NCBI GenBank assembly: GCA_947491985.1
Contig: CANLLR010000005.1
Location: 39,763-103,762 of the forward strand
Source of the DNA: Flavobacteriaceae bacterium
GTDB lineage: Bacteria > Bacteroidota > Bacteroidia > Flavobacteriales > Flavobacteriaceae
Direction of reading: 5' to 3'
Length of the DNA: 64,000 bases
Shown: piece by piece, positions 1,990-51,567 of the stretch
Layout of the letters: every line of letters begins with the position of its first letter
Position numbering within the stretch: position 1 is the stretch's first letter
Program-made: the position numbers and the translations under genes
Notes under the pieces: model-generated
Seen by the model: only the letters and a program-made list of their open reading frames with translations
The model's database searches: none
Told to the model about the DNA's origin: nothing

Positions 1990-2024
1990 CTTCCAACTTC
2001 TATCTACCAACTTCCAACTTTATA
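1990..2024 (+). repeat. Heptad repeat array, CTTCCAA type
   Basis: Five abutting 7-mers in exact phase: CTTCCAA, CTTCTAT, CTACCAA, CTTCCAA, CTTTATA. The array ends four bases before the ATG of the ABC-F gene. It is one of several loci in this window with the same 7-nt period but different 7-mer sequence. Confidence 0.8.
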
Positions 2025-2028
2025 AAAG

Positions 2029-3663
2029 ATGATTACAGTCAACGATATCTCCGTTAATTTCGGTGGAACTACTTTATTTAGCGACGTTTCTTTTGCCATT
2101 AATGAAAACGATAAAATTGCCTTAATGGGTAAAAATGGAGCAGGAAAATCGACGCTTTTAAAGATAATTGCAGGTGAAGCGAAACCGTCGGGCGGGAACA
2201 TATCGGCTCCAAAAGACGCAGTGATTGCCTATTTGCCGCAGCATTTATTAACTTCCGATAATGCGACTGTAATGGAAGAAGCATCGAAAGCTTTTGGTGA
2301 AATCTTCAAAATGAAAGCCGAAATCGATGAAATCAACGAGCAATTGACCATTCGCACCGATTATGAAAGCGACGACTACATGAAATTGATAGAACGTGTT
2401 TCTGATTTGAGTGAGAAATTTTATGCTATTGAAGAAATCAATTACGAAGCCGAAGTAGAGAAAATATTGGTAGGTTTAGGCTTTGAAAGAAACGATTTTT
2501 CGCGTCAAACCTCAGAGTTTTCGGGTGGTTGGAGAATGCGGATTGAACTGGCAAAAATTCTTTTAAAGAAACCCGATCTGATTTTATTGGATGAGCCAAC
2601 CAATCACATGGACATTGAAAGTATCCAATGGTTGGAGGATTTTTTGATCAATTCGGCCAAAGCTGTGGTGGTCATTTCTCACGATAGAGCCTTTGTAGAC
2701 AACATCACCAATCGTACTATTGAAGTCACAATGGGACGCATTTACGACTACAAAGCCAAGTATTCGCACTATTTAGAATTGCGAAAAGACCGACGCATTC
2801 ACCAGCAAAAAGCCTATGATGAACAACAAAAAATGATTGCCGAAAACCAAGAATTTATTGACCGTTTTAAAGGTACTTTCTCTAAAACGTTGTCGGTACA
2901 ATCGCGTGTAAAAATGTTGGAAAAAATTGTTCCGGTTGAAATTGATGAAATTGACACATCGGCATTAAAATTGAAATTTCCGCCAGCGATTCGATCAGGA
3001 CAATATCCGGTAATTGTGAAAGATTTAGAAAAATCGTATGGCGATCATTTGATTTTTGCAGCTGCTAATATTGTTATCGAACGTGGCGATAAAGTCGCTT
3101 TTGTCGGAAAAAACGGCGAAGGAAAATCGACTATGATTAAAGCGATTATGAAAGAAATAGAAATCAACGGTGGAAGTGTTGAAATAGGACACAACGCCAA
3201 AATTGGCTATTTTGCTCAAAATCAAGCCTCGTTGTTGGATGAAAATGGAACTATTTTTTCAACTATTGATGATATTGCTGTGGGCGAAGTGCGAACAAAA
3301 ATAAAAGATATTTTGGGCGCTTTTATGTTTCATGGTGATGATGTAACCAAAAAAGTAAAGGTGCTTTCAGGTGGCGAAAAAACCCGTTTGGCTATGATAA
3401 AATTATTGTTAGAACCTGTGAATTTGTTAATTTTGGATGAGCCTTCCAATCACCTTGACATGAAAACCAAAGACATTATTAAAGATGCGTTGCGTGATTT
3501 TGACGGGACATTGATTTTGGTTTCGCACGACAGGGATTTTCTTGACGGATTGGCGACAAAAGTGTTTGAATTTGGCAACAAGCGTGTTAAAGAACATTTT
3601 GAAGATATTAAAGGGTTTTTGGCTCATAAAAAAATGGAAAGTTTGCGTGAGATTGAGAAGTAA
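2029..3663 (+). CDS. ABC-F family ATPase
   Basis: A 544-residue soluble protein with two ABC ATPase domains and no membrane segments, the layout of the ABC-F translation factors (EttA, YbiT, Uup, YdiF). Walker A motifs are GKNGAGKST near residue 34 and GKNGEGKST near residue 360; signature motifs are FSGGWRMR and LSGGEKTR; both Walker B motifs read LILLDEPTNH or LLILDEPSNH. The basic helical linker between the domains (about residues 240-320) is the part that enters the ribosomal E/P site in characterised members. Family members rescue or tune stalled ribosomes and some give ribosome protection. The overall pattern is closest to the YbiT-like group; exact role unknown. Confidence 0.9.
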   Translation: MITVNDISVNFGGTTLFSDVSFAINENDKIALMGKNGAGKSTLLKIIAGEAKPSGGNISAPKDAVIAYLPQHLLTSDNATVMEEASKAFGEIFKMKAEIDEINEQLTIRTDYESDDYMKLIERVSDLSEKFYAIEEINYEAEVEKILVGLGFERNDFSRQTSEFSGGWRMRIELAKILLKKPDLILLDEPTNHMDIESIQWLEDFLINSAKAVVVISHDRAFVDNITNRTIEVTMGRIYDYKAKYSHYLELRKDRRIHQQKAYDEQQKMIAENQEFIDRFKGTFSKTLSVQSRVKMLEKIVPVEIDEIDTSALKLKFPPAIRSGQYPVIVKDLEKSYGDHLIFAAANIVIERGDKVAFVGKNGEGKSTMIKAIMKEIEINGGSVEIGHNAKIGYFAQNQASLLDENGTIFSTIDDIAVGEVRTKIKDILGAFMFHGDDVTKKVKVLSGGEKTRLAMIKLLLEPVNLLILDEPSNHLDMKTKDIIKDALRDFDGTLILVSHDRDFLDGLATKVFEFGNKRVKEHFEDIKGFLAHKKMESLREIEK

Positions 3664-3685
3664 TTTCTTCCATCACAAAAAAATA

Positions 3686-3718
3686 AAAACCGACAAATTC
3701 CAAGAACTTGTCGGTTTT
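3686..3718. terminator. Bidirectional terminator between convergent genes
   Basis: AAAACCGACAA and TTGTCGGTTTT form an 11-bp stem with an 11-base loop, flanked by A and T runs, so it can serve both the ABC-F gene (+) and the vWA gene (-). Confidence 0.85.
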
Positions 3719-3752
3719 CGCATTCAACAAACTATTTAACCTAACATTTAAC

Positions 3753-5951
3753 TTACAATTTTGCTATCACTTTAGCACCTTCAATCAAACGAATAAATTC
3801 CGCTTTGTATCCTTCTGTATCCTTCGCCAAACCTTCTTTGGCTTGCTTTTTAATATCCTCTGTTTTACTGTTTGATATCAATTTAGAATCTTTTAATTTT
3901 AATCCGAACCACGCTACAGCCGAACAAAATTTGAAATCGGCACTTGCATTTTCGGGACGTATTGCTTTGTTGGCGATAACGTTGACCATTTCAATGCTTT
4001 TGTCTCCGTCTGGCTTTTTGTAACGGAATTTTATAGTCGCCAATTCGTTGCTAAATTGTGTTCCTGTCGCAGCTACTTTAGAGTATTTCAAATCGATTGG
4101 CTCGGAGTTGGTATCGCTTTTGCTACCAACAGCAATGATTTCATACAAAGCAGTTACGGTGTGACCGCTTCCCAATTCGCCAGCATCAATGGTATCATTT
4201 ACAAAATCTTCAGGACGCAATTTTCTGTTTTCATAACCAATTAAACGGTAGGCTTGTACATTGGCTGGGTTGAATTCGATTTGGATTTTTACATCTTTTG
4301 CAATAGCATACATCGAACCTTTGAACTCTTTCACCAAAAAGCGGTTGGCTTCTTGAATCGAATCGATATAGGCATAATTTCCGTTGCCTTTGTCGGCCAA
4401 AGTTTCTAGTTTACTGTCTTTATAATTCCCCATTCCGTAACCTAAACACGTTAAAAACACACCCGATTTTCTTTTGTCTTCGATCAATGTTTGCATGTCC
4501 GAATCGGATGAAGCGCCCACATTAAAATCGCCATCTGTAGCTAAAATCACTCGATTGTTTCCTCCTTTTATGAAATGTTCTTCGGCCGTTTTGTAGGCCA
4601 ATTGAATACCAGCGCCACCAGCTGTGCTTCCGCCAGAATTCAATTTATCTAATGCATTGACGATGGTTTGTTTATCACTTCCTGAGGTAGATGGCAATAC
4701 CAATCCAGCTGCTCCAGCATACACCACAATCGCTATTTTGTCTTCGTCGCGTAATTGAGCCACTAAGGCTTTTAACGATTCTTTTACCAAAGGCAATTTG
4801 TTCATATCACTCATTGAACCGGATACATCTATTAAGAAAACCAGGTTCGACGCAGGTAAACTTTCAGACGGAATGTTTTTTCCTTGCAGTCCAATGCGCA
4901 CCAATTTATTGTTGGGATTCCACGGACATTCACTGTATTCGGTAGTAATTGAAAACGGATGTTCGCTCTGAGGTTGAGGGTATTGGTATTTGAAGAAATT
5001 CATCATTTCTTCGACACGAACGGCATCTTTCGGAACCGTTTGTCCATTATTGATAAAACGACGGATGTTGGTATACGACGCATTGTCAACATCGATTGAA
5101 AACGTAGAAAGAGGGGTTATTTTCGGACTCTCGAACGCATTTTCAACGAATGAGTCATAATCTTCTTGAGTCGGTTCTTCGTGTGCTAATTTATCTTCGT
5201 GTTTTTCGATTTCCTTAAGTTTTTTATTGATTTCCTTTTGGGTTAAATTTTGGAGTATGCCATTTTTGGTTGTGATGACAATTACACCATTAGAACCTCT
5301 GTTTCCGTAAATGGAACTTGCTGAGGCATCTTTTAAAACGTTTACTGATTCGAGTTCGTTAGGGTTTAGATTTTTGAAATCAGCACTTTTTACAGGAACA
5401 CCATTTACAACATATAGTGGGTCATTATTGGTGCTTGTTGTGCCAAGCCCACGAATGACAACATCTGTTTTGTTTGTGCCTGGCTGCCCTGAAGACATGG
5501 CAATATTGGCACCTGCTAACTGACCTTGTAAGGACTGAAACGTATTGACATTGGCTCTTCCTTGAATAGTTTGTGAAGAAACGGTTTGCGTAGCTCCCAT
5601 GGTTTTAGCTTTGGTTTTGGTATAGCCATAGCCTTCCACAACTACTTCAGATAATTTAAGACTACTGGCATTTAATTTTACATTAATTACATTTTGCTGT
5701 CCCACTTTTTTGGACTGATCCTCCAATCCGATGAAACTGTAAACCAATGTTTCTCCAACGCTAGCTTGAATGGCGTATTTGCCATCGAAATTCGTTTGAA
5801 CACCTCGTGTTGTTCCTTTGACTACTACATTGGCTCCAGGTAATGGCCCGGAATTGTCAGATACGATACCGGTAATTGTTTTTTGCTGTGCCATTGTTAC
5901 GAAACATAAAAGCATAGTAAGGGCTGATGAAATAAGTTTTGCACTTTTCAT
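3753..5951 (-). CDS. Secreted/outer-envelope fusion: carboxypeptidase-regulatory domain, TonB plug, vWA (YfbK-type)
   Basis: A 732-residue exported protein (signal peptide 1-21). Residues about 25-97 are a carboxypeptidase-regulatory-like beta sandwich and about 105-230 a TonB-receptor plug with the SusC hallmark DPLYVVNGVPV, then LESVNVLKDASASSIYG and GVIVITTKNG. A charged linker follows, then a YfbK-type N-terminal region (about 280-340), a vWA domain with the MIDAS motif DVSGSMS at 375-381, and a DUF3520-like C-terminus. There is no beta barrel, so it cannot be a transporter. It is third in an operon after an ECF sigma factor and a membrane protein that shares the plug-like tail. Function unknown; the vWA domain suggests metal-dependent protein binding at the cell surface or in the periplasm. 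Confidence 0.85.
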   Translation of the reverse strand: MKSAKLISSALTMLLCFVTMAQQKTITGIVSDNSGPLPGANVVVKGTTRGVQTNFDGKYAIQASVGETLVYSFIGLEDQSKKVGQQNVINVKLNASSLKLSEVVVEGYGYTKTKAKTMGATQTVSSQTIQGRANVNTFQSLQGQLAGANIAMSSGQPGTNKTDVVIRGLGTTSTNNDPLYVVNGVPVKSADFKNLNPNELESVNVLKDASASSIYGNRGSNGVIVITTKNGILQNLTQKEINKKLKEIEKHEDKLAHEEPTQEDYDSFVENAFESPKITPLSTFSIDVDNASYTNIRRFINNGQTVPKDAVRVEEMMNFFKYQYPQPQSEHPFSITTEYSECPWNPNNKLVRIGLQGKNIPSESLPASNLVFLIDVSGSMSDMNKLPLVKESLKALVAQLRDEDKIAIVVYAGAAGLVLPSTSGSDKQTIVNALDKLNSGGSTAGGAGIQLAYKTAEEHFIKGGNNRVILATDGDFNVGASSDSDMQTLIEDKRKSGVFLTCLGYGMGNYKDSKLETLADKGNGNYAYIDSIQEANRFLVKEFKGSMYAIAKDVKIQIEFNPANVQAYRLIGYENRKLRPEDFVNDTIDAGELGSGHTVTALYEIIAVGSKSDTNSEPIDLKYSKVAATGTQFSNELATIKFRYKKPDGDKSIEMVNVIANKAIRPENASADFKFCSAVAWFGLKLKDSKLISNSKTEDIKKQAKEGLAKDTEGYKAEFIRLIEGAKVIAKL

Positions 5952-5981
5952 AATTTTAAAATTTAAAGGTTAGATAATTTT

Positions 5982-6902
5982 TTACGGCTTCTTAAACGAA
6001 GGTTTTCCGGTTTTAGTGGTGATGATGACAACGCCTTTTTTACCTTTTTCACCGTAAATAGCTGTTGCCTTTTCGCCTTGTAATATGGATATGGTGTGAA
6101 TTTCTAATTGTGATAGGGGCACATACGGACTCGTAGGTTTGGGTCCGAATACTTCTTGTTCTGTATAATACACACCATTGATAATATACAGCGGATCTGT
6201 GAGTACTTCTACTGTTTCAAAATCGTCATTTTCTGCATCAGAGTAGTCGGCTTTATTTTTAACTTGGTTGTCAATGACTACTAATGGTTCTAGTTTTTTA
6301 GCGACGTTTTGACTTTCTTTTTTTAGTTCTTCACTTGTTTCTGCGGTTTCGACTTCTTTGTAAACGACACCTCGTGCTTCAAAAAAACGGTTGGGCGTCA
6401 TCATGGTTTTTGATTGATAGCCTATAGCATTTTTGTTTTGTTGGGTAAAAATAGCAGAATCGGTTATGATAACATTTTTATCTTTCTCACTTGTAATGTT
6501 GTAATTGTTGTTGATGATGATTTGACTGGGAGCCGTTGCTTTTTGTATTGTTGCTGTATTATTTTCTTGAATTGGATTGGAAATAGCATCGGTACCTACA
6601 ATTTGTTGATCGATAATTTTTTGCGATTGTAAGGACTTGGTCGTATCGATTGTTACGGTTTCATTTTTTGGAGTTACTACATCGTTTGTTGGTGTTAAAT
6701 AGTGATATGCTATTGAAATAATTAGGAGTAGAATAGCTGCCACTGCAATTTTTTTCCAAAGCGAGTTTTCTTTTTTCAATATTTTTTTATCGAGTTTGTT
6801 TTCTACTCGTGACCAAACGTTTTCCATCGACGGAAAGTCTTTGGTTTCTGCATTTTCAGCAGCAGTTTTGATTTGATCAAATAATTTATCTTTATTTTCC
6901 AT
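5982..6902 (-). CDS. Membrane-anchored anti-sigma-like protein with plug-like C-terminus
   Basis: 306 residues: a charged N-terminal region of about 48 residues, one membrane helix at about 50-68 (KIAVAAILLLIISIAYHYL), a long periplasmic linker rich in N, Q and T, and a C-terminal segment (about 238-300) containing DPLYIINGVYYTE, ILQGEKATAIYG and KGVVIITTK. That segment mirrors the last part of a SusC-type plug and the same stretch in the next gene. Position directly after an ECF sigma factor gene (two-base gap) and the single-pass topology fit an anti-sigma factor, although no known zinc anti-sigma motif is visible. The anti-sigma role is inference from context. Confidence 0.7.
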   Translation of the reverse strand: MENKDKLFDQIKTAAENAETKDFPSMENVWSRVENKLDKKILKKENSLWKKIAVAAILLLIISIAYHYLTPTNDVVTPKNETVTIDTTKSLQSQKIIDQQIVGTDAISNPIQENNTATIQKATAPSQIIINNNYNITSEKDKNVIITDSAIFTQQNKNAIGYQSKTMMTPNRFFEARGVVYKEVETAETSEELKKESQNVAKKLEPLVVIDNQVKNKADYSDAENDDFETVEVLTDPLYIINGVYYTEQEVFGPKPTSPYVPLSQLEIHTISILQGEKATAIYGEKGKKGVVIITTKTGKPSFKKP

Positions 6903-6904
6903 TG

Positions 6905-7441: not shown

Positions 7442-7514
7442 AATGATTGCCTTTAAAACTAAAGAGGGTTTATTTTATAAAAAGGTTGGGAACGAAGTAA
7501 AAATAAAACTAAAA

Positions 7515-7541
7515 AAAAGCTTATCCTATCGATAAGCTTTT
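7515..7541 (-). terminator. Terminator after the LamG gene
   Basis: AAAAGCTTATC and GATAAGCTTTT form a perfect 11-bp stem with a five-base loop; in the minus direction it lies just after the LamG gene and before the sigma-factor promoter region. Confidence 0.8.
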
Positions 7542-7563
7542 AAAAATCAATTATAAAGGTATA

Positions 7564-8565: not shown

Positions 8566-8708
8566 AATACTGTGGATTAGTTTTGTTTAATCCAAATTTA
8601 CAGTATTTGCATAAATGTAACGCAGTAAAGTGATTTAATTTTTCAAACTTTAATTCTAAATAAATAGTATTTAAAAATTATAATAAAGTCTTGATAAATT
8701 GTTATTTT

Positions 8709-9545: not shown

Positions 9546-9560
9546 AAGTTTGCTAATAAG

Positions 9561-9645
9561 TCTAGCCCAGATAGCAGTGAAAATCCTTTTGTTTTTTTCT
9601 TTAGAAAAACAAAAGATTGTAACGGATAGCTGGAAATAGCTTTTC
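9561..9645 (+). repeat. Structured intergenic element, copy A (possible Flavo-1 RNA)
   Basis: Conserved left end TCTAGCCCAGATAGCAGTG, a perfect hairpin CTTTTGTTTTT/AAAAACAAAAG (9586-9596 and 9605-9615), and conserved right end GATTGTAACGGATAGCTGGA. The same ends occur at 22083-22156 and, inverted, at 32488-32628. It fills the space between the divergent propeller-like gene and the PPK2 gene. It may be the Flavo-1 RNA motif known from Flavobacteria; that identity is from memory. Confidence 0.6.
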
Positions 9646-20895: not shown

Positions 20896-20903
20896 CAAAT
20901 TTA
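20896..20903 (-). promoter_or_regulatory. TAnnTTTG box upstream of secA
   Basis: On the minus strand TAAATTTG is 25 bases before the chosen ATG; it also argues against the longer ORF start at 20898, which would lie inside the box. Confidence 0.5.
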
Positions 20904-20958
20904 AACAAAAAAAAAGCCCCTAAGGAGACTTTCTTTCTTTGTAATTGTTTATTTCTTG

Positions 20959-21180
20959 TTAATATTCATCCTCGTTCCAAAGATAATCTTCGTCGGTTGG
21001 ATAATCTGGCCATATTTCTTCCATTGATTCGTATATTTCGCCTTCATCTTCAATTGATTGAAGATTTTCTACCACTTCTAACGGAGCTCCTGCTCTGATA
21101 GCGTAGTCAATAAGCTCATCTTTGGTTGCTGGCCATGGTGCATCGCTTAAATAAGATGCTAATTCTAATGTCCAATACAT
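20959..21180 (-). CDS. DUF2795-family small protein
   Basis: A 73-residue acidic protein: MYWTLELASYLSDAPWPATKDELIDYAIRAGAPLEVVENLQ matches the DUF2795 fold (a small helical domain), followed by an acidic tail ending DEDYLWNEDEY. It is widespread in Bacteroidota, where it sits near housekeeping genes. It is encoded just before secA on the same strand, but a secA promoter lies in the 87-base gap, so they may be separate units. Function is not known. Confidence 0.85.
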   Translation of the reverse strand: MYWTLELASYLSDAPWPATKDELIDYAIRAGAPLEVVENLQSIEDEGEIYESMEEIWPDYPTDEDYLWNEDEY

Positions 21181-21280
21181 CTGCTTCGATTTTATAATTT
21201 ATGCAAAAATAAATTTATTACTGAAAAAGTCAAGTAAAAAATGATTTATTTTATAGTTAAAGTTAAGAACGTCTTTATTA

Positions 21281-21419
21281 GTATTCAGTTTTCAGTGTTC
21301 AGTATTCAGTTTTATATTGTTTGTAAAACATAAATTTTCTAAAAATGAACTCTGAAAAAGCAGTATTTGATACGTTACGTTTTTACTGGCGACTGATCAC
21401 TGCCAACTGATCACTATTT
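21281..21419. repeat. Two opposed heptad arrays, GTNTTCA and ACTGNNN types
   Basis: Four 7-mers GTATTCA, GTTTTCA, GTGTTCA, GTATTCA at 21281-21308, and five 7-mers ACTGGCG, ACTGATC, ACTGCCA, ACTGATC, ACTATTT at 21385-21419. The second array is roughly the complement of the first. The stop codon of the cobalamin adenosyltransferase (21414-21416) lies inside the last 7-mer. Confidence 0.8.
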
Positions 21420-21983
21420 CCTCGGAATCCATTTTACTTCGTCTGCGTTCAGGTCTAAAGTCAACTTCCGTGCCAAGACAAAAAGGTAGTCAGAAAGTCG
21501 GTTGAGGTACTTAATAACCATTTCGTCTGTTGGCTCTATGTCATTTAAATGTACTGCTAAACGTTCGGCACGTCGACACACACAGCGTGCAATATGACAA
21601 TATGACACAGTAGTATGACCACCAGGCAAAACAAAGTGGGTCATCGGAGGCAATTGGGTTTCCATGGTATCGATTTCATTTTCTAAAAATAGAATATCGC
21701 TTTCCTGAATGCCTAGGTTTTGCAAGCGTTTTTCGCCATTTTTGAGGGTTTCTTTTTCGGGAGGCGTGGCAAGTATGGCGCCGACGGTAAATAGGCGGTC
21801 TTGGACTTCGATCAAAACGTTTTTATACAAAACGTTTATTTCTTGGTCGCGAATGAGTCCGATGTGCGAATTTAATTCATCTACCGTACCGTAACTTTCA
21901 ATGCGAATGTGGTGTTTAGAAACGCGTGTGCCTCCGAAAAGTGCGGTAGTTCCGGTGTCGCCGGTTTTGGTGTATACTTTCAT
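21414..21983 (-). CDS. Cob(I)yrinic acid a,c-diamide adenosyltransferase, PduO type
   Basis: I start at ATG 21983 (MKVYTKTGDTGTTALFGG), giving 189 residues; the track ORF is extended upstream through an intergenic element. The N-terminal TKTGDTGTTALFGGTRVSK is the ATP-binding signature of PduO-type ATP:corrinoid adenosyltransferases, and CRRAERLAVHL plus YLNRLSDYLFVLAR are the helical-core motifs. It makes adenosylcobalamin. With MeaB in the same window it fits supply of the coenzyme to methylmalonyl-CoA mutase. The region directly upstream (21991-22019) has near-heptad repeats of AATCTAA (minus strand). Confidence 0.93.
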   Translation of the reverse strand: MKVYTKTGDTGTTALFGGTRVSKHHIRIESYGTVDELNSHIGLIRDQEINVLYKNVLIEVQDRLFTVGAILATPPEKETLKNGEKRLQNLGIQESDILFLENEIDTMETQLPPMTHFVLPGGHTTVSYCHIARCVCRRAERLAVHLNDIEPTDEMVIKYLNRLSDYLFVLARKLTLDLNADEVKWIPRK

Positions 21984-22082
21984 GCAAATTTTATATTTTA
22001 GATTTTTAGATTTTAGATTCGCATCTAACTCCATAAATTGAATTTGATTTTCAAAGGTAACAAAAATTAGAATGGATTGTTG

Positions 22083-22156
22083 TCTAGCCCTGATGGAGCG
22101 GTTATCCTTTGTGAAGTATGAACAAAGATAATAGTGACAGCAGGAATAACGCTCAC
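22083..22156 (+). repeat. Structured intergenic element, copy B (possible Flavo-1 RNA)
   Basis: Left end TCTAGCCCTGATGGAGCGG, hairpin CTTTGT/ACAAAG (22107-22112 and 22122-22127), right end ATAGTGACAGCAGGAATAACG. It corresponds to copy A (9561-9645) end to end, with a shorter core. It lies in the 203-base gap between the ABC ATPase and the adenosyltransferase, in antisense to both. Confidence 0.55.
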
Positions 22157-22186
22157 TGATAAAGCCCAAGCCTTTTGCTACAAATT

Positions 22187-22885
22187 TTATAAATGATTTG
22201 CGTTGAGCGTATCGCTTTCAATCTTTCCGTCTCGCAAACGGATTACTCGATGGGCATATTGGGCGATGTCTTCTTCGTGCGTCACCAAAATTACGGTGTT
22301 GCCATTTTTGTGAATGTCGTTGAACAAATTCATGATTTCGACCGAAGTTTTACTGTCGAGATTACCGGTTGGCTCATCGGCCAAAATGATGGATGGATTG
22401 TTGACTAAAGCTCTGGCAATGGCGACTCTTTGTCGCTGACCACCAGATAATTGGTTGGGTTGGTGGTCCATTCGATCGGCGAGATTCACTTGAGTCAATA
22501 CTTCGGTAGCTCTTTTATTGCGTTCGGATTTGGAATAGCCTGCGTACACCATGGGTAATGCCACATTGTCTAAAGCCGTGGTTCGTGGCAAAAGGTTGAA
22601 GGTTTGAAAAACAAATCCGATTTCTTTGTTGCGAATTTCGGCTAAATCGTCGTCGTGCATCTGACTCACGTCTTTTCCGTTCAGTATATACGTTCCAGAA
22701 GTGGGCGTGTCTAAGCAACCTAAAAGGTTCATTAAAGTCGATTTTCCGGAACCTGACGGACCCATTAAAGCGACATATTCGCCTTTGTTGATTTGCAAAT
22801 CGATGCCTTTTAGTACGTTGATGATTTCGCTACCCAGAACGAAATCTCGTTTTATATTGGTTATGTTTATTAATGGTTGCGCCAT
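22187..22885 (-). CDS. ABC transporter ATPase, LolD/MacB type
   Basis: 232 residues, a single ABC domain: Walker [10 protein letters not shown] (about 41-49), Q-loop [10 protein letters not shown], signature [15 protein letters not shown], Walker [12 protein letters not shown] and H-loop [32 protein letters not shown] is typical of the LolD/MacB/FtsE-like group that powers lipoprotein release or efflux. No partner permease (FtsX/MacB-like) is adjacent, so the partner is elsewhere. The start ATG 22885 is bounded by a heptad array directly upstream. Confidence 0.92.
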
Positions 22886-22893
22886 TATGGAGT

Positions 22894-22921
22894 ACGAATT
22901 AAAAATTAGGAATTACGAATT
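22894..22921. repeat. Heptad repeat array, ANNAATT type
   Basis: Four abutting 7-mers: ACGAATT, AAAAATT, AGGAATT, ACGAATT. The array ends eight bases from the start codon of the LolD-like gene on the minus strand. Confidence 0.75.
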
Positions 22922-23907: not shown

Positions 23908-23914
23908 TTTTAAA

Positions 23915-23979
23915 GTGTTCAGTGTTCAGTGTTCAGTGTTCAGAACTGTCAACTGAGCACTGAGCACTGCCAACTCATT
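23915..23979. repeat. Inverted pair of heptad arrays, GTGTTCA and ACTGAGC types
   Basis: Four perfect copies of GTGTTCA (23915-23942), then ACTGTCA, ACTGAGC, ACTGAGC, ACTGCCA, ACTCATT (23945-23979). The second set complements the first with G-T pairs, so the RNA could fold into a long hairpin. The pair fills the whole space between a start codon (methyltransferase) and a stop codon (Uup-like gene). Confidence 0.85.
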
Positions 23980-25839: not shown

Positions 25840-25889
25840 GAAATTAATTTGAAAATTTGAAAATGTATCAATTTAAAATTGATAGTGTG

Positions 25890-25897
25890 CAAAAGTA
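25890..25897 (-). promoter_or_regulatory. TAnnTTTG box for the Uup-like gene
   Basis: Minus-strand TACTTTTG, 51 bases before the ATG. Between them are period-8 TTTGAAAA repeats and a small TATCAATT/AATTGATA hairpin. Confidence 0.5.
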
Positions 25898-25960
25898 CTA
25901 TTTTAAAATGTTTCCCCCATTTCCAAATCTACAAATCTTTAAATTTTAAAATTTTAAAAT

Positions 25961-25968
25961 TATCTTTG
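25961..25968 (+). promoter_or_regulatory. TAnnTTTG box almost touching the glycosyltransferase start
   Basis: TATCTTTG ends five bases before the ATG at 25973, so a transcript from this box would have almost no 5' leader. Confidence 0.4.
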
Positions 25969-25972
25969 CCCC

Positions 25973-31713: not shown

Positions 31714-31720
31714 TAATTTT

Positions 31721-31752
31721 TTTGTTACAACAATTTATTTTCCGTAAGTTTG
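31721..31752 (+). promoter_or_regulatory. Promoter of the rpmB-rpmG operon
   Basis: TTTG (31721-31724), 20-base spacer, TAAGTTTG (31745-31752): the closest match to the Bacteroidota consensus in this window. The rpmB ATG is at 31789. Confidence 0.7.
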
Positions 31753-31788
31753 CACCCTTATTTAGAATAACGATAAAAGAAAAGTATA

Positions 31789-32025
31789 ATGTCTAGAGTT
31801 TGTGACCTTACTGGTAAAAGAGCGATGGTAGGAAATAATGTTTCCCACGCAATGAATAAAACTAAGAGAAAATTTTCTGTGAACTTAGTTAAAAAACGTT
31901 TCTATCTTGCTGAAGAAGACAGATGGATTACTCTTAGAGTAGCTGCATCTACAATTAAAACAATCAATAAAAATGGATTGGCTGCTGTATTAAAAACAGC
32001 TAAAGCTAACGGATTTATTAAATAA
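31789..32025 (+). CDS. rpmB: 50S ribosomal protein L28
   Basis: 78 residues with [21 protein letters not shown] at the start and [19 protein letters not shown] near the end, the typical L28 sequence. It is a small basic protein of the large ribosomal subunit near the exit region. It is first in the rpmB-rpmG-DUF4295 group, with a strong promoter upstream and a terminator after the third gene. The length is standard for Bacteroidota. Confidence 0.98.
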
Positions 32026-32050
32026 TCTATCCTAAAAAAAATAAAGCAAG

Positions 32051-32233
32051 ATGGCAAAGAAAGGTAATAGAATTCAGGTAATTTTAGAGTGTACAGAACA
32101 CAAAACCACAGGTGTGGCAGGAACGTCTCGTTACATTACAACTAAAAACAAAAAAAATACTCCAGATAGATTAGAGATTAAGAAATTTAATCCAATCTTA
32201 AAGAGAATGACTGTTCACAAAGAGATCAAATAA
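32051..32233 (+). CDS. rpmG: 50S ribosomal protein L33
   Basis: 60 residues: [18 protein letters not shown], then [23 protein letters not shown] and the tail HKEIK. It is the L33 form with only one cysteine (CTEHK), so it lacks the four-cysteine zinc site of C+ forms. It starts 25 bases after rpmB and is co-transcribed with it. Confidence 0.98.
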
Positions 32234-32269
32234 TTAGAAATTTTTACAATTTCATAATAGCAATATACC

Positions 32270-32422
32270 ATGGCAAAGAAAACCGTAGCAACATTACAGA
32301 CCGCTTCTAAAAGATTAACCAAAGCAATTAAAATGGTGAAATCTCCAAAAACTGGTGCTTACACTTTTGTAGAAAGCATCATGTCTCCAGAAGAAGTAGA
32401 TACGTTCTTGAAAAAGAAATAA
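32270..32422 (+). CDS. DUF4295 protein (ribosome-associated small protein)
   Basis: Missed by the ORF track because of its 50-residue length. ATG 32270 to TAA 32422 encodes MAKKTVATLQTASKRLTKAI, then KMVKSPKTGAYTFVESIMSP and a short KKK end. In Bacteroidota this DUF4295 gene lies after rpmG almost without exception, and it is considered a lineage-specific ribosomal or ribosome-associated protein. Here it lies 36 bases after rpmG and before the operon terminator. Confidence 0.93.
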   Translation: MAKKTVATLQTASKRLTKAIKMVKSPKTGAYTFVESIMSPEEVDTFLKKK

Positions 32423-32443
32423 TTCTAAACACACTATATAGTT

Positions 32444-32469
32444 AAGCTACTTTCTTACGGAAGTAGCTT
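32444..32469 (+). terminator. Terminator of the rpmB operon
   Basis: AAGCTACTTTC and GGAAGTAGCTT form an 11-bp stem (one G-T pair) with a TTAC loop, followed by TTTTTATTTTTA. Confidence 0.85.
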
Positions 32470-32487
32470 TTTTATTTTTATATTTGT

Positions 32488-32628
32488 GCAGCCAATCCGG
32501 CTATTCGCTGCAAGTCCTCGTCTTTCAGGCAGTTTTTGTAAAAAGTTCGATAGCTTCCTTCGGTCGCCACGCACATTTTCAAAAACTAAGCCTTCAAAAC
32601 TCCGGGCTTTACGCTACTATCCAGGCTG
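32488..32628 (-). repeat. Structured intergenic element, copy C (possible Flavo-1 RNA)
   Basis: On the minus strand it begins CAGCCTGGATAGTAGCG and ends CAGCGAATAGCCGGATTGGC, matching copies A and B. The core is longer and more GC-rich, with the AGTTTTTG/CAAAAACT pairing (32531-32538 and 32580-32587). It fills most of the 308-base gap between DUF4295 and ftsY, which has no gene. Confidence 0.55.
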
Positions 32629-32646
32629 TTAATTTGAAAATTTGGT

Positions 32647-32711
32647 AATTTGAAAATTTGAAAATGCATGCATCTTCAAGTTTTGGGTTCCAATTTTCAA
32701 ATTTTCAAATT
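32647..32711. repeat. 19-bp perfect inverted repeat upstream of ftsY
   Basis: AATTTGAAAATTTGAAAAT (32647-32665) and its exact complement (32693-32711) with a 27-base loop. The arms are made of TTTGAAAA period-8 units. The ftsY ATG is 20 bases downstream. The same unit occurs before the Uup-like gene. Confidence 0.75.
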
Positions 32712-32730
32712 ATTTAATAATTTAATTACT

Positions 32731-42918: not shown

Positions 42919-45111
42919 TTGAAAGACCTTCTTATCATAACGCCTCCTTTTACCCAACTCAATACGCCTTATCCGGCAACGGCGTATTTGAAAGGTTTTC
43001 TGAATACCAAAAACATTTCATCTTTTCAAATGGATTTGGGTATGGAAGTGATTTTAGATTTGTTTTCCAAGAATGGATTAATTAAAATCTTCACTTCTTC
43101 GAGCTCCTATCTTCCATCTTCCAATTCGCAACGAATTAGTTCTCTTCAAAACGACTACATCAAAACCATCGATGCTGTTATGGCTTTCCTTCAAGGAAAA
43201 AATCCAACCTTAGCGCGACAAATTTGTTCCGGAAATTTTCTTCCCGAGGCATCGCGTTTTGATCAACTAGACGATATGGAATGGGCTTTTGGTTCGATGG
43301 GAATGCAAGACAAAGCCAAACATTTCGCTACTTTGTATCTCGAAGATATCTCCGATTTTATTATCGAATGTATCGATGAAAATTTTGGTTTTAGTCGCTA
43401 CGCCGAACGTTTGGGACGAAGTGCAAATTCTTTTGACGAACTGTATACACATCTCAAAAAAGAACCAACTTATATTGACTCCATTACGTTGCGGATTTTA
43501 AAAAGCAGCATCGAAAAAAACCAACCCAAATTAGTTTGTTTTTCGGTTCCTTTTCCAGGGAATTTATACAGTGCTTTTCGATGTGCGCAATTTATAAAAG
43601 AACATTTCCCTGAAATAAAAATTGCAATGGGCGGCGGATTTCCCAACACCGAATTAAGGGAATTAAAAGACCCACGCGTGTTCGAATTTTTCGATTTCAT
43701 TACTTTGGATGATGGCGAATTGCCAATCGAATTGTTACACGCTTATTGTCATGCTGATAAAGGAAATAACTCAACTACAGAATTCAAACGCACCTTCCTA
43801 GTTGAGAACAGTCACGTTACCTACAAAAACAATTCCCAAAAACACGATTACAAACAAAGTGAAGTAGGAACTCCTGATTATTCCGATTTACTTTTAGACA
43901 AATACATTTCGGTAATCGAAATTGCCAACCCAATGCACAGTTTGTGGAGCGATGGTCGTTGGAACAAACTTACCATGGCACATGGTTGCTACTGGGGGAA
44001 ATGTACTTTTTGCGACATTTCGCTGGATTACATCAAACTATACGAACCTGTAGCTGCCAAACTTTTGGTCGACCGAATGGAGGAACTCATTGCCCAAACG
44101 GGTGAAAACGGATTCCATTTTGTAGACGAAGCTGCGCCACCCGCATTGATGCGCGAGGTAGCGTTGGAAATCATCAAACGAAAATTAGTGGTGAGTTGGT
44201 GGACCAACATCCGTTTTGAGAAAAGTTTTACTGCCGATTTGTGTGTCGTGTTAAAAGCTTCGGGTTGTATTGCTGTTTCAGGTGGATTGGAAGTGGCATC
44301 GGACCGACTCTTAGCATTGATAAAAAAAGGGGTTACGGTCGAACAAGTGGCACAAGTCACAAGCAACTTCACTGAAAGTGGCATTATGGTGCACGCCTAT
44401 TTGATGTACGGATATCCCACACAAACCATTCAAGAAACTGTCGATAGTTTGGAAATGGTACGCCAATTGTTTGAAGTCGGAATTTTGCAAAGTGGTTTTT
44501 GGCATCAATTTGCGATGACGGCACATTCGCCCGTAGGCATGTTTCCAGAGGAATTTGGTGTTATACCCGAATTAAATGAAATTACTTTTGCTAACAACGA
44601 CATTGCATTTAAAGACAAAACTAATATTGATCACAACAAATTTAGTTTCGGACTAAAGAAATCGCTATTCAATTATATGCACGGCATTTGCTTAGATTTT
44701 GAATTGCAAGAATGGTTTGATTTTAAAATTCCGCGCACTAAAATCGATCCTGATTATATTGTTTCTTGTCTCGAAAAAGAAGCTGATTTCAACATAAAAC
44801 CATCGTCAAAAATTGTTTGGATAGGAGGAAATCCAATTTCGGAAGATTTTACCAAATCTAAAAAAGGCAGCACTTGGGAAATGATGAAATTGACGTTTCA
44901 TGATAAGTCGAAAACCTTTACCATTTCGTTAGAAAAAGACAAAGCCGAATGGTTGATTGCGACACTTGAAAAAGTGGCAATACAAAAAGATATCACTGTA
45001 CCTTTTGGAAAACTTAAAGAAAGTTTTGAAAATCAATTTGAAGACTTTGAACTCTTTTGGTATTCCAAACCGATTACTACGTTGAGGGAATTTGGGTTGT
45101 TGGTTTTATAA
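42919..45111 (+). CDS. B12-binding-domain radical SAM protein
   Basis: 730 residues starting at TTG 42919 (MKDLLIITPPFTQLN). The N-terminal third resembles the cobalamin-binding fold of such enzymes. The radical SAM cluster site reads HGCYWGKCTFCDIS, a C-x4-C-x2-C spacing instead of the usual C-x3-C-x2-C. IAVSGGLEVASDRLLALIKKGVT and GIMVHAYLMYGYPTQTIQETVDSLEMV are later radical SAM TIM-barrel motifs. Residues about 57-70 (SSSSYLPSSNSQR) are encoded by a heptad repeat. A TACTTTTG box is at 42895-42902. Probable partner of PhyH upstream. Substrate unknown; classes of this kind modify lipids or natural products. Confidence 0.85.
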   Translation: MKDLLIITPPFTQLNTPYPATAYLKGFLNTKNISSFQMDLGMEVILDLFSKNGLIKIFTSSSSYLPSSNSQRISSLQNDYIKTIDAVMAFLQGKNPTLARQICSGNFLPEASRFDQLDDMEWAFGSMGMQDKAKHFATLYLEDISDFIIECIDENFGFSRYAERLGRSANSFDELYTHLKKEPTYIDSITLRILKSSIEKNQPKLVCFSVPFPGNLYSAFRCAQFIKEHFPEIKIAMGGGFPNTELRELKDPRVFEFFDFITLDDGELPIELLHAYCHADKGNNSTTEFKRTFLVENSHVTYKNNSQKHDYKQSEVGTPDYSDLLLDKYISVIEIANPMHSLWSDGRWNKLTMAHGCYWGKCTFCDISLDYIKLYEPVAAKLLVDRMEELIAQTGENGFHFVDEAAPPALMREVALEIIKRKLVVSWWTNIRFEKSFTADLCVVLKASGCIAVSGGLEVASDRLLALIKKGVTVEQVAQVTSNFTESGIMVHAYLMYGYPTQTIQETVDSLEMVRQLFEVGILQSGFWHQFAMTAHSPVGMFPEEFGVIPELNEITFANNDIAFKDKTNIDHNKFSFGLKKSLFNYMHGICLDFELQEWFDFKIPRTKIDPDYIVSCLEKEADFNIKPSSKIVWIGGNPISEDFTKSKKGSTWEMMKLTFHDKSKTFTISLEKDKAEWLIATLEKVAIQKDITVPFGKLKESFENQFEDFELFWYSKPITTLREFGLLVL
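43104..43131 (+). repeat. Heptad repeat inside the radical SAM coding region
   Basis: 7-mers CTCCTAT, CTTCCAT, CTTCCAA, TTCGCAA in exact phase, the same family as the array upstream of the first ABC-F gene (1990-2024). They encode part of a serine-rich insertion. Confidence 0.6.
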
Positions 45112-45165
45112 AAAAAAGCGTAAATAAGTATTGACTTGCGTTTTAAAAACTAACTATCTAACCTA

Positions 45166-48100: not shown

Positions 48101-48585
48101 CCATTGTTGTAAACCACTATTCTACTATATGGTTCTGTATTTATTGTAATAGTTACAGATGAACCTTGACAAACAGATTGATTGGCAGTTGCAAAATTAG
48201 TATTCAATCTAGTTTCAATAAGCAATGGAAAACTTGTTGTAGTATAGTTAGTTGGATTTGCAATTTCCGAAACTCTGCAAAAAATAGTTGGACCGCTTAC
48301 ACTGGAAAAAAGATTAAAAAAAGCAATACTGTTTGTATTAGAATCTGCATCTAATTGTGAATAAAAAAAGGCAACTTCATAATCTTACAGATTCAAACTT
48401 CCTAAAATTTCAGGAATTTTACTGCCTAATGGAAAAACAGCAATTCCATCAAAATTGTCATCACATCCAATTAATACTGTTGGAGTGTTAATTGGTGGCT
48501 GTGCATAGGCAATACCAGCAAATAGTAATAATAAAAACAGTAACTTTTTCAAAACAATTTTTTTTATGTTTATTATTGTTTTCAT
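45166..48585 (-). pseudogene. Leucine-rich-repeat T9SS surface protein, broken by an in-frame stop
   Basis: The track gives two ORFs, 48385-48585 (66 codons, signal peptide LFLLLLFAGIAYAQ and start of the mature region) and 45166-48225. Both lie in one frame, and the frame between them is open, reading DYEVAFFYSQLDADSNTNSI and on, from a single TAA at 48385-48387. Joined, the protein is about 1138 residues: an N-terminal LGSLN-DYEV type domain, Ig-like regions, about 15 leucine-rich repeats (LDCSYNSLTNLNVAGCSQLQSL pattern, residues about 330-620 of the joined protein), DUF11-like regions and a T9SS sorting domain. A TCA or TTA to TAA change would explain the stop. Residual expression from an internal start would lack the signal peptide. 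Surface adhesion is the likely original role. Confidence 0.85.
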
Positions 48586-48632
48586 AACTTTTTTATTTAA
48601 AAAGGTAAATGTAATTATTTTTTATTCTATAG

Positions 48633-49262
48633 TTATAATGCTTTTATCAATTCTTGTAATTTTTTCCTATTACTTTATGCGATTGGAATGTTCGTATTAT
48701 CAGCCATAATCACACAACCTCCATCACTTTTAATGTACGATTTCAAAAACGATAGATTAATCAAATGCGATTGGTGTATGCGTTCACATCCGTGTTCGGT
48801 TAATAATTCTTCATACTCTTTTAAGGTTTTTGAGAGCAATAATGGTTTGTGATTTTTGATAAAAAACTCGATGTAATTTCCTTTTGCATCACAGCGAATG
48901 ATGTACGAAACTTCAAACGGCAATCGCATTACTTTAGAAAATTTAGACAAATATTTTAAAGCAGAATCGGTGCCGTTTTGAACGATAAAACTCGAAATCG
49001 ATCCCAAACAATCGAAAACAAAATGTGGATTCATTTGCAAATGCAGGGCTTTTTGTTCGTATTCGGCGCCTTCTTTTTGCAAGGTCAAACGGCCTTTGAC
49101 TTTATCGGCTATTACATTGTAAAGTGGTACTTTAGACGTATCAATTTTAGTCACTTTTAACACTCGTTTTAAACTATCAATTGCTGCTTGTTGTCCGAAA
49201 CAATTCAAGCAAAAAAGAACGAGACTAGTACTAACTAATATGTTGAGTTTGTTTTTTATCAT
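48633..49262 (-). pseudogene. Collapsed LytS-type kinase / LytTR regulator relic
   Basis: The track ORF (48675-49262, 195 codons) is a mosaic: a signal peptide and the first repeat of a TPR sensor (SLKRVLKVTKIDTSKVPLYNVIADK), then a LytS-type kinase core (QKALHLQMNPHFVFDCLGSISSFIVQ), then without any receiver domain a LytTR DNA-binding domain (IIRCDAKGNYIEFFIKN, SKTLKEYEELLTEHG, RIHQSHLINLSF). The normal TPR block, membrane helix, ATP-binding domain and receiver are missing, so two internal deletions in frame are inferred. After the TAA at 48675-48677 the frame runs on with SNRKKLQELIKAL to a second TAA at 48633, the normal LytTR end. Function as a sensor or regulator is unlikely. Confidence 0.75.
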
Positions 49263-49321
49263 GGTTGTTCTAACTTACAGTCACAAATATAACCCAAGTT
49301 TTTAGTTTACTTTGGCCCAAC

Positions 49322-49360
49322 TAGTATTCTGTAGGTTTGATTTAGTATTCTATAGGTTTA
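49322..49360. promoter_or_regulatory. 21-base-spaced direct repeat, possible LytTR operator
   Basis: TAGTATTCTGTAGGTTT and TAGTATTCTATAGGTTT start 21 bases apart (49322 and 49343), between the LytTR relic and the carboxylase operon. LytTR regulators bind direct repeats of about 9 bp spaced about 21 bp apart, so this could be the site once used by the adjacent regulator. Confidence 0.45.
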
Positions 49361-49453
49361 AGCGATTTCTATATCAATTTACCAATTTTAATTAAAATAA
49401 TCGGTTGCGAAAACGTTTTCTTTATTAAATTTACTACCACAAAATAATCCCAT

Positions 49454-49939
49454 ATGAGTAACGCTTACAAAGTAACTGTAAATCATGGAAATCCCATTGA
49501 TGCTGCAGAAAGTGATCTTAAAAATCTAGATGCAATTCCTATAGGAACTTCTAAATTTCATGTGCTGAAAAATAACAAATCTTTCCAAGCCGAAATCATT
49601 TCTTCCGATTTTATCGCTAAAAAGTACTCGGTTAAAGTCAACAACACCACTTATGAAGTAGCCATATCCGATGCTTTGGATATTTTAATTCAAAGTATGG
49701 GAATTGAACGCGGTCGTACCAAAGTAATCAATGCCATTAAAGCTCCAATGCCTGGTTTGATACTTGAAATTAGTGTTTCAATCGGTCAAGAAGTGAAAGA
49801 AAATGATCCGCTATTAATTCTCGAAGCCATGAAAATGGAAAATAGTTTCCTGTCTCCTCGCGATGGTGTGATCAAGTCGATTGCAGTTGAAAAAGGCAAC
49901 GCCGTCGATAAAGGACAATTGTTAATCGAATTTGAATAA
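49454..49939 (+). CDS. Biotin carboxyl carrier protein of an acyl-CoA carboxylase
   Basis: 161 residues. The C-terminal 75 residues are a biotinyl domain with the attachment motif EAMKMEN (lysine biotinylated) and the preceding PMPGLILEISVSIGQEVKENDPLLI. The N-terminal half is the strand-rich region common to carriers of acetyl- or propionyl-CoA carboxylases of Bacteroidota. It is first in an operon with the biotin carboxylase (16 bases downstream) and the carboxyltransferase. Together they give a three-subunit carboxylase. Confidence 0.93.
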   Translation: MSNAYKVTVNHGNPIDAAESDLKNLDAIPIGTSKFHVLKNNKSFQAEIISSDFIAKKYSVKVNNTTYEVAISDALDILIQSMGIERGRTKVINAIKAPMPGLILEISVSIGQEVKENDPLLILEAMKMENSFLSPRDGVIKSIAVEKGNAVDKGQLLIEFE

Positions 49940-49940
49940 A

Positions 49941-49961
49941 CCTGAAACCTGAAACGTGAAA
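49941..49961 (+). repeat. Heptad repeat containing the biotin carboxylase start codon
   Basis: CCTGAAA, CCTGAAA, CGTGAAA in exact phase. The GTG start codon of the carboxylase gene is in the third copy (49956-49958). Confidence 0.8.
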
Positions 49962-51416
49962 CAAATTAAAAAGATACTAGTTGCCAACCGCGGTGAAATT
50001 GCCATTCGTGTCATGAAAACCGCCAAAAAAATGGGCATCAAAACAGTTGCAGTGTATTCTGCTGCCGACCGGAATGCTTTGCATGTAAAATATGCCGATG
50101 AAGCCGTTTGCATTGGTGAAGCAGCCTCGAGTCAGTCGTACTTGCTTGGCGATAAAATAATCGAAGTGTGTTTGTCACTTGGCGTGGATGCTGTGCATCC
50201 TGGTTACGGGTTTTTGAGTGAAAATGCCGCTTTTGCAGAAGCCTGCGAAAAAAACAACATTATTTTTATCGGACCAAAATCGAAAGCCATCGAAATGATG
50301 GGAAGTAAATTAGCCGCTAAAGAGGCTGTGAAAGCGTACAATATTCCGATGGTTCCCGGAACCGAAGAAGCAATTACCGATATTGAAGAGGCTAAAAAAA
50401 TCGCTACTACTATTGGTTTTCCCATCTTAATCAAAGCCTCTGCAGGTGGCGGTGGAAAAGGAATGCGTGTGGTAGAAAAAGAAGCCGATTTTGTATCGCA
50501 AATGAATCGTGCCATCAGTGAAGCGGTTTCTGCTTTTGGAGATGGTTCGGTATTTATCGAAAAATACGTCACCAAACCGCGTCACATCGAAATACAAATT
50601 ATGGCCGACAGTCATGGCAATGTACTGTATGTTTTTGAAAGAGAATGCAGCATCCAACGACGTCACCAAAAAGTAGTCGAAGAAGCACCATCGTGTATTT
50701 TAACTCCAGAAAAGCGAAAAGAAATGGGTGAAGCTGCCGTAAAAGTAGCGCGAGCCTGCGACTATTTGGGAGCCGGAACCGTCGAATTTTTAATGGACGA
50801 CCAACTTAATTTTTACTTTCTCGAAATGAATACGCGTTTGCAAGTGGAGCATCCTGTTTCTGAAATGATTTCAGGGTTGGATTTGGTCGAATTGCAAATT
50901 CGTGTCGCTCGTGGCGAAGCTTTACCGATGCAACAAGACGATTTGAAAATTACAGGTCATGCTATGGAACTCCGTGTGTATGCTGAAGATACGTTGAATG
51001 ATTTTTTGCCGAATGTCGGATTTTTAAGTACCTATAAATTGCCAGAAGGCGACGGAATTCGTGTCGACAACGGCATCGAGCAAGGAATGGACGTACCCAT
51101 TTATTACGATCCGATGTTATCCAAATTGGTGACGTATGGCAAAACACGTGAAGAAGCCATCGAACTTATGATTAAAGCCATCGCTGACTATCATATCGAA
51201 GGTGTGGCCACCACATTGCCTTTTGGGAAATTTGTGATGGAACATGAAGCCTTTCGTTCGGGCGATTTTGACACCGGTTTTGTAAAAGCCTTTTACGATG
51301 CTGATAAATTAAAGTCGGCGCTTGAAACCGAAGCTGACATTGCCGCTTTAATAGCATTGCGTCAGTATGTTGAGGATAAGAAGATAGTTCGATTACCGAA
51401 TTTAGAAAATAGATAA
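49956..51416 (+). CDS. Biotin carboxylase subunit of acyl-CoA carboxylase
   Basis: 486 residues with an ATP-grasp fold. KILVANRGEIAIRVMKTAKKMGI (N-terminal), VHPGYGFLSENAAFAEAC, KASAGGGGKGMRVV (ATP loop), RHIEIQIMADSHGNVLYVFERECSIQRRHQKVVEEAPS and FLEMNTRLQVEHPVSEMISGLDLVE are the full motif set. It carboxylates biotin on the carrier. The start is GTG 49956, inside a heptad repeat, and the last three codons (EN R) are also made by a heptad array (GAAAATA GATAATA). In the operon with BCCP and the carboxyltransferase; probably propionyl- or acetyl-CoA specific, to be settled by the beta subunit. Confidence 0.95.
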   Translation: MKQIKKILVANRGEIAIRVMKTAKKMGIKTVAVYSAADRNALHVKYADEAVCIGEAASSQSYLLGDKIIEVCLSLGVDAVHPGYGFLSENAAFAEACEKNNIIFIGPKSKAIEMMGSKLAAKEAVKAYNIPMVPGTEEAITDIEEAKKIATTIGFPILIKASAGGGGKGMRVVEKEADFVSQMNRAISEAVSAFGDGSVFIEKYVTKPRHIEIQIMADSHGNVLYVFERECSIQRRHQKVVEEAPSCILTPEKRKEMGEAAVKVARACDYLGAGTVEFLMDDQLNFYFLEMNTRLQVEHPVSEMISGLDLVELQIRVARGEALPMQQDDLKITGHAMELRVYAEDTLNDFLPNVGFLSTYKLPEGDGIRVDNGIEQGMDVPIYYDPMLSKLVTYGKTREEAIELMIKAIADYHIEGVATTLPFGKFVMEHEAFRSGDFDTGFVKAFYDADKLKSALETEADIAALIALRQYVEDKKIVRLPNLENR

Positions 51417-51567
51417 TAGAAAATAGATATATAGAGAAAAGATAATAGAGAAAAGATAATAGGGAAAAGATAATAGAGAAAAGATAATAGAGAAAAGATG
51501 TTTGAAAATAGATATTTGTTTTTTAGATAGATGAGTGTCTATTATCTATCATCTATTTTCTCTTCTC
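51405..51567. repeat. Long heptad arrays in inverted arrangement (GATAATA / TATTATC)
   Basis: Left array 51405-51524: sixteen or so 7-mers, mostly GATAATA alternating with GAGAAAA or GAAAATA (one extra base at 51433). Right array 51540-51567: TATTATC, TATCATC, TATTTTC, TCTTCTC, complementary to the first 7-mers. It starts within the last codons of the carboxylase gene and fills the gap to the next gene. Confidence 0.85.

Follow-up and report, generated by a model that had tools for sequence, protein, structure and literature searches.

Period-7 tandem arrays at gene edges in a Flavobacteriaceae genome and its relatives

Short tandem arrays with a period of seven nucleotides recur between the genes of a Flavobacteriaceae bacterium (assembly GCA_947491985.1), and the question they raise is how they arise and why they stand where they do. 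The stretch of DNA analyzed, hereafter the window, comprises 64,000 nucleotides, corresponding to positions 39763-103762 of contig 5 (CANLLR010000005.1) of a draft genome of 2.65 Mb in 82 contigs. In the comparison of accC, the nearest named relatives were Flavobacterium species, including F. celericrescens, F. aquatile and F. cheniae (88-89% amino-acid identity). A preliminary description of the window had listed arrays at six intergenic places and one coding place, all with an exact 7-nt period, and had suggested a genome-wide process behind them. Below, G- and L-numbers are handles for the compared genomes and loci, respectively.

Periodicity was scored as +1 for a match and -1 for a mismatch, and compared with Markov-shuffled DNA (Markov-1 for the 464-kb and multi-genome counts). 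The multi-genome set combined the window's genome with further Flavobacteriaceae sequences, namely five more genomes and 76 loci; the six genomes were sampled at about 400 kb each, and the intergenic DNA of the set came to 389 kb. This set held 94 intergenic period-7 arrays when 3.6 were expected, an approximately 25-fold excess that was replicated in six genomes. Period 8 was represented by 22 arrays (3.6 expected), period 11 by 14 (3.4) and period 6 by 11 (3.0), and periods 5, 9, 10 and 12 were near expectation. The window's own genome, over 464 kb, had 7 non-coding period-7 arrays against 0.1 expected, and per base the non-coding DNA (7 arrays in 33 kb) was far denser in them than the coding DNA (5 in 431 kb). 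The control, 250 kb of Escherichia coli K-12 with 28 kb of gaps analyzed with the same code, gave zero arrays at every period from 4 to 12. The period-7 signal is real and strongly 7-specific: it is clearly stronger than that of periods 6, 8 and 9 after control for composition, and the suggested genome-wide process is borne out by an excess across the genus. Chance in AT-rich DNA or an artefact of counting is hardly credible; two of the listed loci, 43104 and 22886, are close to background, but for the whole set this explanation is refuted by the size of the excess over Markov-1 shuffles, the mild excess at few other periods and the agreement of the six genomes.

For the window, the null was its 8.8 kb of non-coding DNA after Markov shuffling, with 0.34 segments expected at scores of at least 12, 0.14 at at least 13 and 0.02 at at least 16. 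Period 7 was the best period at all seven places, where periods 5, 6, 8, 9 and 10 gave 0-8 at each. The arrays and their arms are the following (TRF, Tandem Repeats Finder).

1990..2020, minus strand: CTTCCAA array of 4.4 imperfect copies (TRF score 41; period-7 score 12, other periods 0)
21280..21313, plus strand: left arm, AGTNTTC array (score 19)
21385..21410, minus strand: right arm ACTGATCACTGCCAACTGA, inverted partner of 21280-21313 (local complementarity p = 0.01)
22886..22921, plus strand: weak ANNAATT array (score 13, 0.14 expected per window)
23914..23943, plus strand: left arm (AGTGTTC)x4.3, perfect (TRF 100% matches; score 31 jointly with the right arm, over 23914-23969)
23952..23969, minus strand: right arm (ACTGAGC)x2.6, inverted partner of the 23914 arm (p = 0.0015)
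49938..49962, plus strand: AAACCTG array (TRF score 43; period-7 score 16)
51398..51514, plus strand: left arm, 14-nt double heptad AGAGAAA-AGATAAT (period 14 score 150, period 7 score 96; period-7 score 35 over 51398-51569)
51538..51569, minus strand: right arm TCTATTATCTATCATCTATTTTCTCTTCTCTC, 12 nt ahead of the carboxyltransferase start (partner p = 0.0005, 22/24 bases paired)

The loci at 21280, 23914, 49938 and 51398 are beyond doubt solid period-7 arrays, and those at 1990 and 22886 are modest when taken singly. Five segments like the coding locus 43104 (43097-43123, score 10), itself included, occur in the coding DNA of the window, and the locus was dropped as background. The locus at 1990 is better supported because in G013 and G012 the orthologous leader holds CTTCCAACTTCCAACTT and an ACTTTTT array, respectively. 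As to the exactness of the period, period 7 did prove best everywhere, but the copies are imperfect, the 51403 array consists of a 14-nt double unit, and period-8 arrays are present in the window too.

The six intergenic arrays are placed as follows. The array at 1990, G-rich on the minus strand (TTGGAAG), lies in a 5' leader directly upstream of the start of an ABC-F gene at 2029. Just upstream, at 1945-1990, is a TATCTTAG / TATCTTTG sequence kept in four species, which we take to resemble the TAnnTTTG promoter element of Bacteroidetes; with such a promoter-like element upstream, the array would therefore fall in the ABC-F 5' leader. The 21280 array is between the start region of a small minus-strand open reading frame (ORF) and a cobalamin adenosyltransferase gene, the 22886 array upstream of an ABC transporter gene (22187-22885), and the 23914 array in a 72-nt gap separating two minus-strand genes. 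The 49938 array fills the accB-accC gap, only 1-6 nt long in several relatives, and includes the GTG start of accC, and the 51398 array includes the accC stop together with the last codons LENR, beyond the LPN where several close relatives stop.

The contact with start and stop codons noted from the window, where both the start and the stop of accC are inside arrays, was found also in the multi-genome set: 58% of the arrays were at most 10 nt from a gene edge, compared to 29% under random placement in their own gap (p 0.001). Co-directional genes flanked 72 of the 94 arrays and divergent genes only eight, though divergent gaps form a quarter of the intergenic bases. Of 88 arrays, 67 had the G-richer strand pointing outward, its 5' to 3' direction leading off from the nearest gene (odds ratio 10, p 1e-6); for arrays at most 10 nt from the edge the figure was 44 of 51. 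At start-codon edges the outward G/C was 1.45 also in array-free gaps, so that part of the bias reflects a sense strand generally poor in G upstream of starts. Array-free gaps at stop-codon edges were unbiased (0.92), and the outward-G bias there is therefore array-specific.

A position at stop and start codons could also be expected of selected RNA hairpins, that is, of mRNA 3' or 5' structures at operon junctions, and the plus strand of 23914-23969 folds well (z -4.9). The genes beside this segment are, however, encoded on the minus strand, which folds less strongly (z -2.0), and array gaps were no more structured than control gaps (p 0.15). Sense hairpins were more stable than antisense ones in 22 of 51 co-directional gaps (p 0.15), and because they thus have no advantage, an origin at the DNA level is favoured over selection on RNA, which appears very unlikely.

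The units within an array are most similar to their neighbours (0.84 for adjacent copies, 0.74 for copies at lag 5), a gradient that speaks for tandem duplication. They are contiguous 7-mers with no unique spacers, in agreement with the earlier statement that the arrays are not CRISPR. Among the 83 gaps that hold arrays, a significant inverted partner was detected in 32, compared with 5 when the arrays were reversed but left uncomplemented as a control, and the G-richer arm came first in 28 of the 32 paired gaps (28 versus 2 in the orientation count). The three partners described earlier in the window, at 51403 (the 51398 array), 23914 and 21280, were all recovered, and none was found at 1990 or 22894 (the 22886 array). 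At 23914, one heptad position consistently distinguishes the arms, AGTGTTC against AGTGCTC in every copy, and therefore each arm has been homogenised separately. The arms at L273 match exactly as inverted copies, down to the order in which variant units follow one another.

Some sequence is shared between loci. A non-heptad module, CAGCGNAGCGGTCTT, was met repeatedly in pyrimidine-rich right arms whose words belong to the AGAAGCA family; it occurs at six loci of G021 and also in other species (L204, L210, L212-L215, L199, L200 and L203), and gives the best evidence that at least some arms are copied between loci. The module contains GCGNAGC, known as an unusually stable DNA mini-hairpin. Two G007 gaps have in common one 31-nt array segment with its variants in identical order. 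When the gaps were compared with each other by BLAST, heptad words were shared between loci and loops were not. Heptad arms also flank terminator-like hairpins (L218, L221, G007 L088 17721-17955 and G010 L117 19106-19364); one such hairpin, at the centre of a convergent gap, is similar in G007 and G010, while the arms on either side of it are made of different words.

The arrays turn over rapidly between species. In approximately 90 genomes, the accB-accC and accC-accA gaps include only a few bases in many species and insertions of roughly 40-170 nt in others, with words such as AGAAGCA, AAACCTG, AGAATAT, AGAGAAA-AGATAAT, AAAGGCA, CACAAAG and more. Array-bearing gaps were longer than those without arrays (median 88 versus 57 nt, p 0.035) and several empty sites measured 1-6 nt, which points to insertion. 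The array in the accC-accA gap persists among very close species (L120, L122, L123, L124 and L134), and among more distant species only 1 of 31 array-bearing orthologous gap pairs had an array, strictly defined, in both members. Conservation of array position, on which the preliminary description had let its case depend, holds accordingly at close range but not beyond. Palindromes at orthologous gaps were weakly concordant (odds ratio 2.3, p 0.03). In orthologues of the window gap 20899-21413, differing phased words stand within conserved flanks in G013, G012 and G007, and G010 is less regular. The gap before ...ATGAAAAT is 16 nt long in the window's genome, and in G010, G012 and G013 it is occupied by convergent arms of the types GGGTTTT, GGTGAAA and TCTTCCA.

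Another family, phased CACAAAG / CTTTGTG palindromes with a spacing of about 8-11 nt, occurs in gaps that have heptad arrays in other species, namely the accB-accC gaps of L119, L135, L140 and L173 and the G012 and G013 orthologues of window 23908-23979. At L238 of G013, orthologous to G007 L091 6301-6363, a palindrome TGTCATTTCGACGAAGGAGAAATC ... GATTTCTCCTTCGTCGAAATGACA is present where G007 and G010 have heptad arms. Two of the compared loci, L121 and L156, come from public metagenome-assembled genome records titled Bifidobacterium breve, but their accC regions are Flavobacterium-like (89% and 80% protein identity, respectively) and the names look wrong.

Taken together, the comparisons document a history of duplication, separate homogenisation of the arms, insertion between codons, and turnover. 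The reading that we place first, with about an even chance of being correct, is slippage at the DNA level in 7-nt steps combined with the copying of one arm by fold-back, the products being tolerated outside genes only. A strand slipping as DNA is synthesised would duplicate sequence in tandem, in 7-nt steps, and so produce one arm; fold-back copying, by template switching in a hairpin, may then give the inverted partner, and later slippage would homogenise the arms separately. Selection would remove insertions that break genes, so that arrays would survive only in small gaps and their arms end at stop and start codons. For the 7-nt step, the leading idea is a 7-nt contact of the DNA polymerase, as proposed for other genomes.

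Several observations weigh against slippage as the whole account. It leaves unexplained the size of the step and the retention of certain columns, notably those with G. In 13 arrays, some of the seven columns varied more than others (combined p 2e-4), and words occurring four times at spacing 7 with divergent spacers numbered 183 when 21 were expected. Plain slippage would not predict the outward G of unpaired arrays (35 versus 13), nor does slippage explain a CAGCGNAGCGGTCTT module shared between the right arms of different loci and species. Because the outward G of single arrays, the retained cores and this module are left over, there remains scope for either a mobile palindrome or a binding array.

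A mobile palindromic element, of the repetitive extragenic palindrome (REP) or miniature inverted-repeat transposable element sort, would insert the paired phased arms as a unit, and the word families would be its diverged versions. The convergent pairs with a single fixed handedness, the recurring CAGCGNAGCGGTCTT, the near-empty orthologous sites and the 31-nt segment of the two G007 gaps are all in its favour. However, no target-site duplication was visible by eye in the accB-accC gap or the other filled and empty gaps, where the flanks are start and stop codons, and different loci have no loop in common. Neither a Y1 transposase nor a reverse transcriptase was matched in array-rich genomes such as G012 and G052, and the Y1 transposase (REP-associated tyrosine transposase, RAYT) was found neither in G012 nor in seven other array-rich genomes. 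The numbers of arrays and of the two enzymes correlated weakly (0.30 for Y1_Tnp, genome size not being controlled) or not at all. With array-rich genomes lacking both, RAYT and reverse transcriptase were rejected as required generators. In searches with one array each, nothing similar to the 23914 array was found in plasmids or to the 51403 array in phages. A mobile element of this sort is regarded as unlikely.

Selected binding arrays would involve a protein that recognises a short core recurring at 7-nt intervals, on DNA or on single strands, the remainder of the unit being free to drift. The divergent-spacer words fit this, since the other spacings are near the null: spacings 5, 8, 9, 10 and 11 range from below expectation to less than twice it, and spacing 6 gave 30 against 15. 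As a sign of a selected core these words are suggestive, and they result partly from choosing the best column of a decayed array. Mismatches in the G-rich orientation affected 7.5% of cells in G columns, about 11% in A or T columns and 22% in C columns, the last of these figures being open to some bias as the orientation was picked by G over C, and were low at the centres of AGT, GTG, GAA and TGG. Most units have one or two isolated G, with GGG in few words only (e.g. GGGTTTT in G010), and most did not have the G-tracts fit for a G-quadruplex. AGT was the most over-represented of the frequent cores, in 21 of 48 units against 10 expected; as the enrichment is only about twofold, AGT was rejected as a universal core. 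In whole genomes, AGT at spacing 7 was present in 59 of 61 Flavobacterium genomes and also across the phylum, and the window's genome has 78 such places, versus 24 at spacing 8. Among the AGT-N4 matches listed are arrays in which nearly every N4 differs, as would suit a protein reading the core. The preliminary description had noted that three 7-mers span 21 bp, two turns of B-DNA, and that a protein might read one face; given that some columns are kept at 7-nt spacing, such a protein is conceivable. Also the rarity of the arrays in divergent, promoter-bearing gaps (8/94) is consistent with binding. Against it, the core words vary by locus and genome, array positions are not conserved across species (1/31 pairs), the genes neighbouring the window's arrays show no apparent function class, and the similarity of adjacent copies indicates recent duplication. 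On balance selected binding arrays are an unlikely explanation.

A further possibility is a dedicated and widespread bacterial process in which palindromes would be written de novo, a fixed core (AGT-N4 and similar) returning at 7-nt intervals and the bases between being nearly free. It would act in Bacteroidetes, Xanthomonas and Cyanobacteria and be tied to gene boundaries; this is a distinctly improbable conjecture.

Some other features of the window are recorded here. Period 8 is a clear second period in the window's genome, and the window has period-8 arrays at 25924-25961, 32631-32665 and 32688-32726, in which AATTTGAA is again accompanied by an inverted partner, its reverse complement; the gaps concerned are 25840-25972 and 31714-32667. 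The only Rfam matches in the window were two Flavo-1 RNAs (RF01705) at 9560-9640 and 22082-22151 (81 and 47 bits, respectively), and neither overlaps an array. The second is within the 5' part of the TTG-started ORF 21414-22169, and the true start of the cobalamin adenosyltransferase is therefore probably further downstream. The minus-strand ORF 61440-62432 includes coding repeats with units of 15, 21, 33 and 60 nt; it encodes a repetitive protein and is unrelated to the intergenic arrays.

Earlier reports of heptamers were piecemeal, with one word per genus, while the Flavobacteriaceae have many coexisting words in one layout that replace each other at the same gap. They thus offer a natural experiment on the birth of arrays, on the choice of seven and on the G-rich arm facing away from genes. 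In practice, arrays alter inferred start and stop codons, here those of accC, and intergenic length within operons.

Among known systems, REP and bacterial interspersed mosaic elements (BIME) with their RAYT transposases are intergenic palindromes with convergent pairs and high copy number. The present arrays differ from REP/BIME in having no conserved element sequence within the genome and no obligatory RAYT. A literature search for the array words themselves gave one chance match, in a rice microsatellite paper. The preliminary description could not name a repeat class for the arrays, but heptanucleotide repeats have been published (PMC4692102, PMC4679880), and those of Xanthomonas (GGGAATC) have the same convergent layout at gene edges. 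In the majority of repeat-rich prokaryote genomes, the class described as most abundant is that of long simple-sequence repeats built from 7-nt units (Mrazek 2007, as cited in PMC4679880), and polymerase contact length was proposed as the cause of the 7-nt unit (Mrazek 2007, via PMC4679880 and PMC4692102). That class, with units of 5-11 nt, comprises runs beyond statistical expectation, as found here (94 versus 3.6), and like it the present arrays are mostly outside coding sequence; the descriptions of it cited in PMC4679880 and PMC4692102 mention no arm pairing or orientation rule.

The closest likeness is to the Xanthomonas GGGAATC and Nostoc GGGGAYT arrays, which are intergenic and near ORFs, few of them between divergent ORFs (Rehm 2015, PMC4692102). 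Downstream of stops their G-rich strand is the coding one and upstream of starts the non-coding one, and Xanthomonas has 70-75 convergent pairs per genome but Nostoc only a few (PMC4692102). As in those systems, the copies here are imperfect 7-nt units with some fixed positions, intergenic and near ORF ends, with the G-rich strand outward, mostly in co-directional and rarely in divergent gaps, varying in length among relatives and, as in Xanthomonas, forming convergent pairs. In the systems of Rehm and coworkers one G-quadruplex-capable, G-rich word dominates the genome and most sites are common to related species, whereas in Flavobacteriaceae many AT-rich words with short G runs coexist and sites turn over between species.

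The TAACTGA arrays of Bacteroidetes have been reported to share their gaps with other heptamers, relatives having shorter gaps in which no repeat is obvious (MacGregor 2015, PMC4679880). The present arrays resemble them as heptamer arrays just upstream of start codons, and TAACTGA, read on the opposite strand, is an AGT-N4 unit, although none of the window's arrays uses it as its word. In Beggiatoaceae, TAACTGA is a single word in two to six copies, mainly upstream of starts and with one indirect repeat only (PMC4679880). Several different tandem heptanucleotides in one genome, as found here, are described for the short tandemly repeated repetitive (STRR) sequences of Calothrix (Mazel 1990, as cited in PMC4692102). 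The Flavobacteriaceae arrays belong, then, to a known but unexplained kind, and what is new in them is the many AT-rich words per genome, the lack of any need for a G-quadruplex, and the rapid replacement at the same site.

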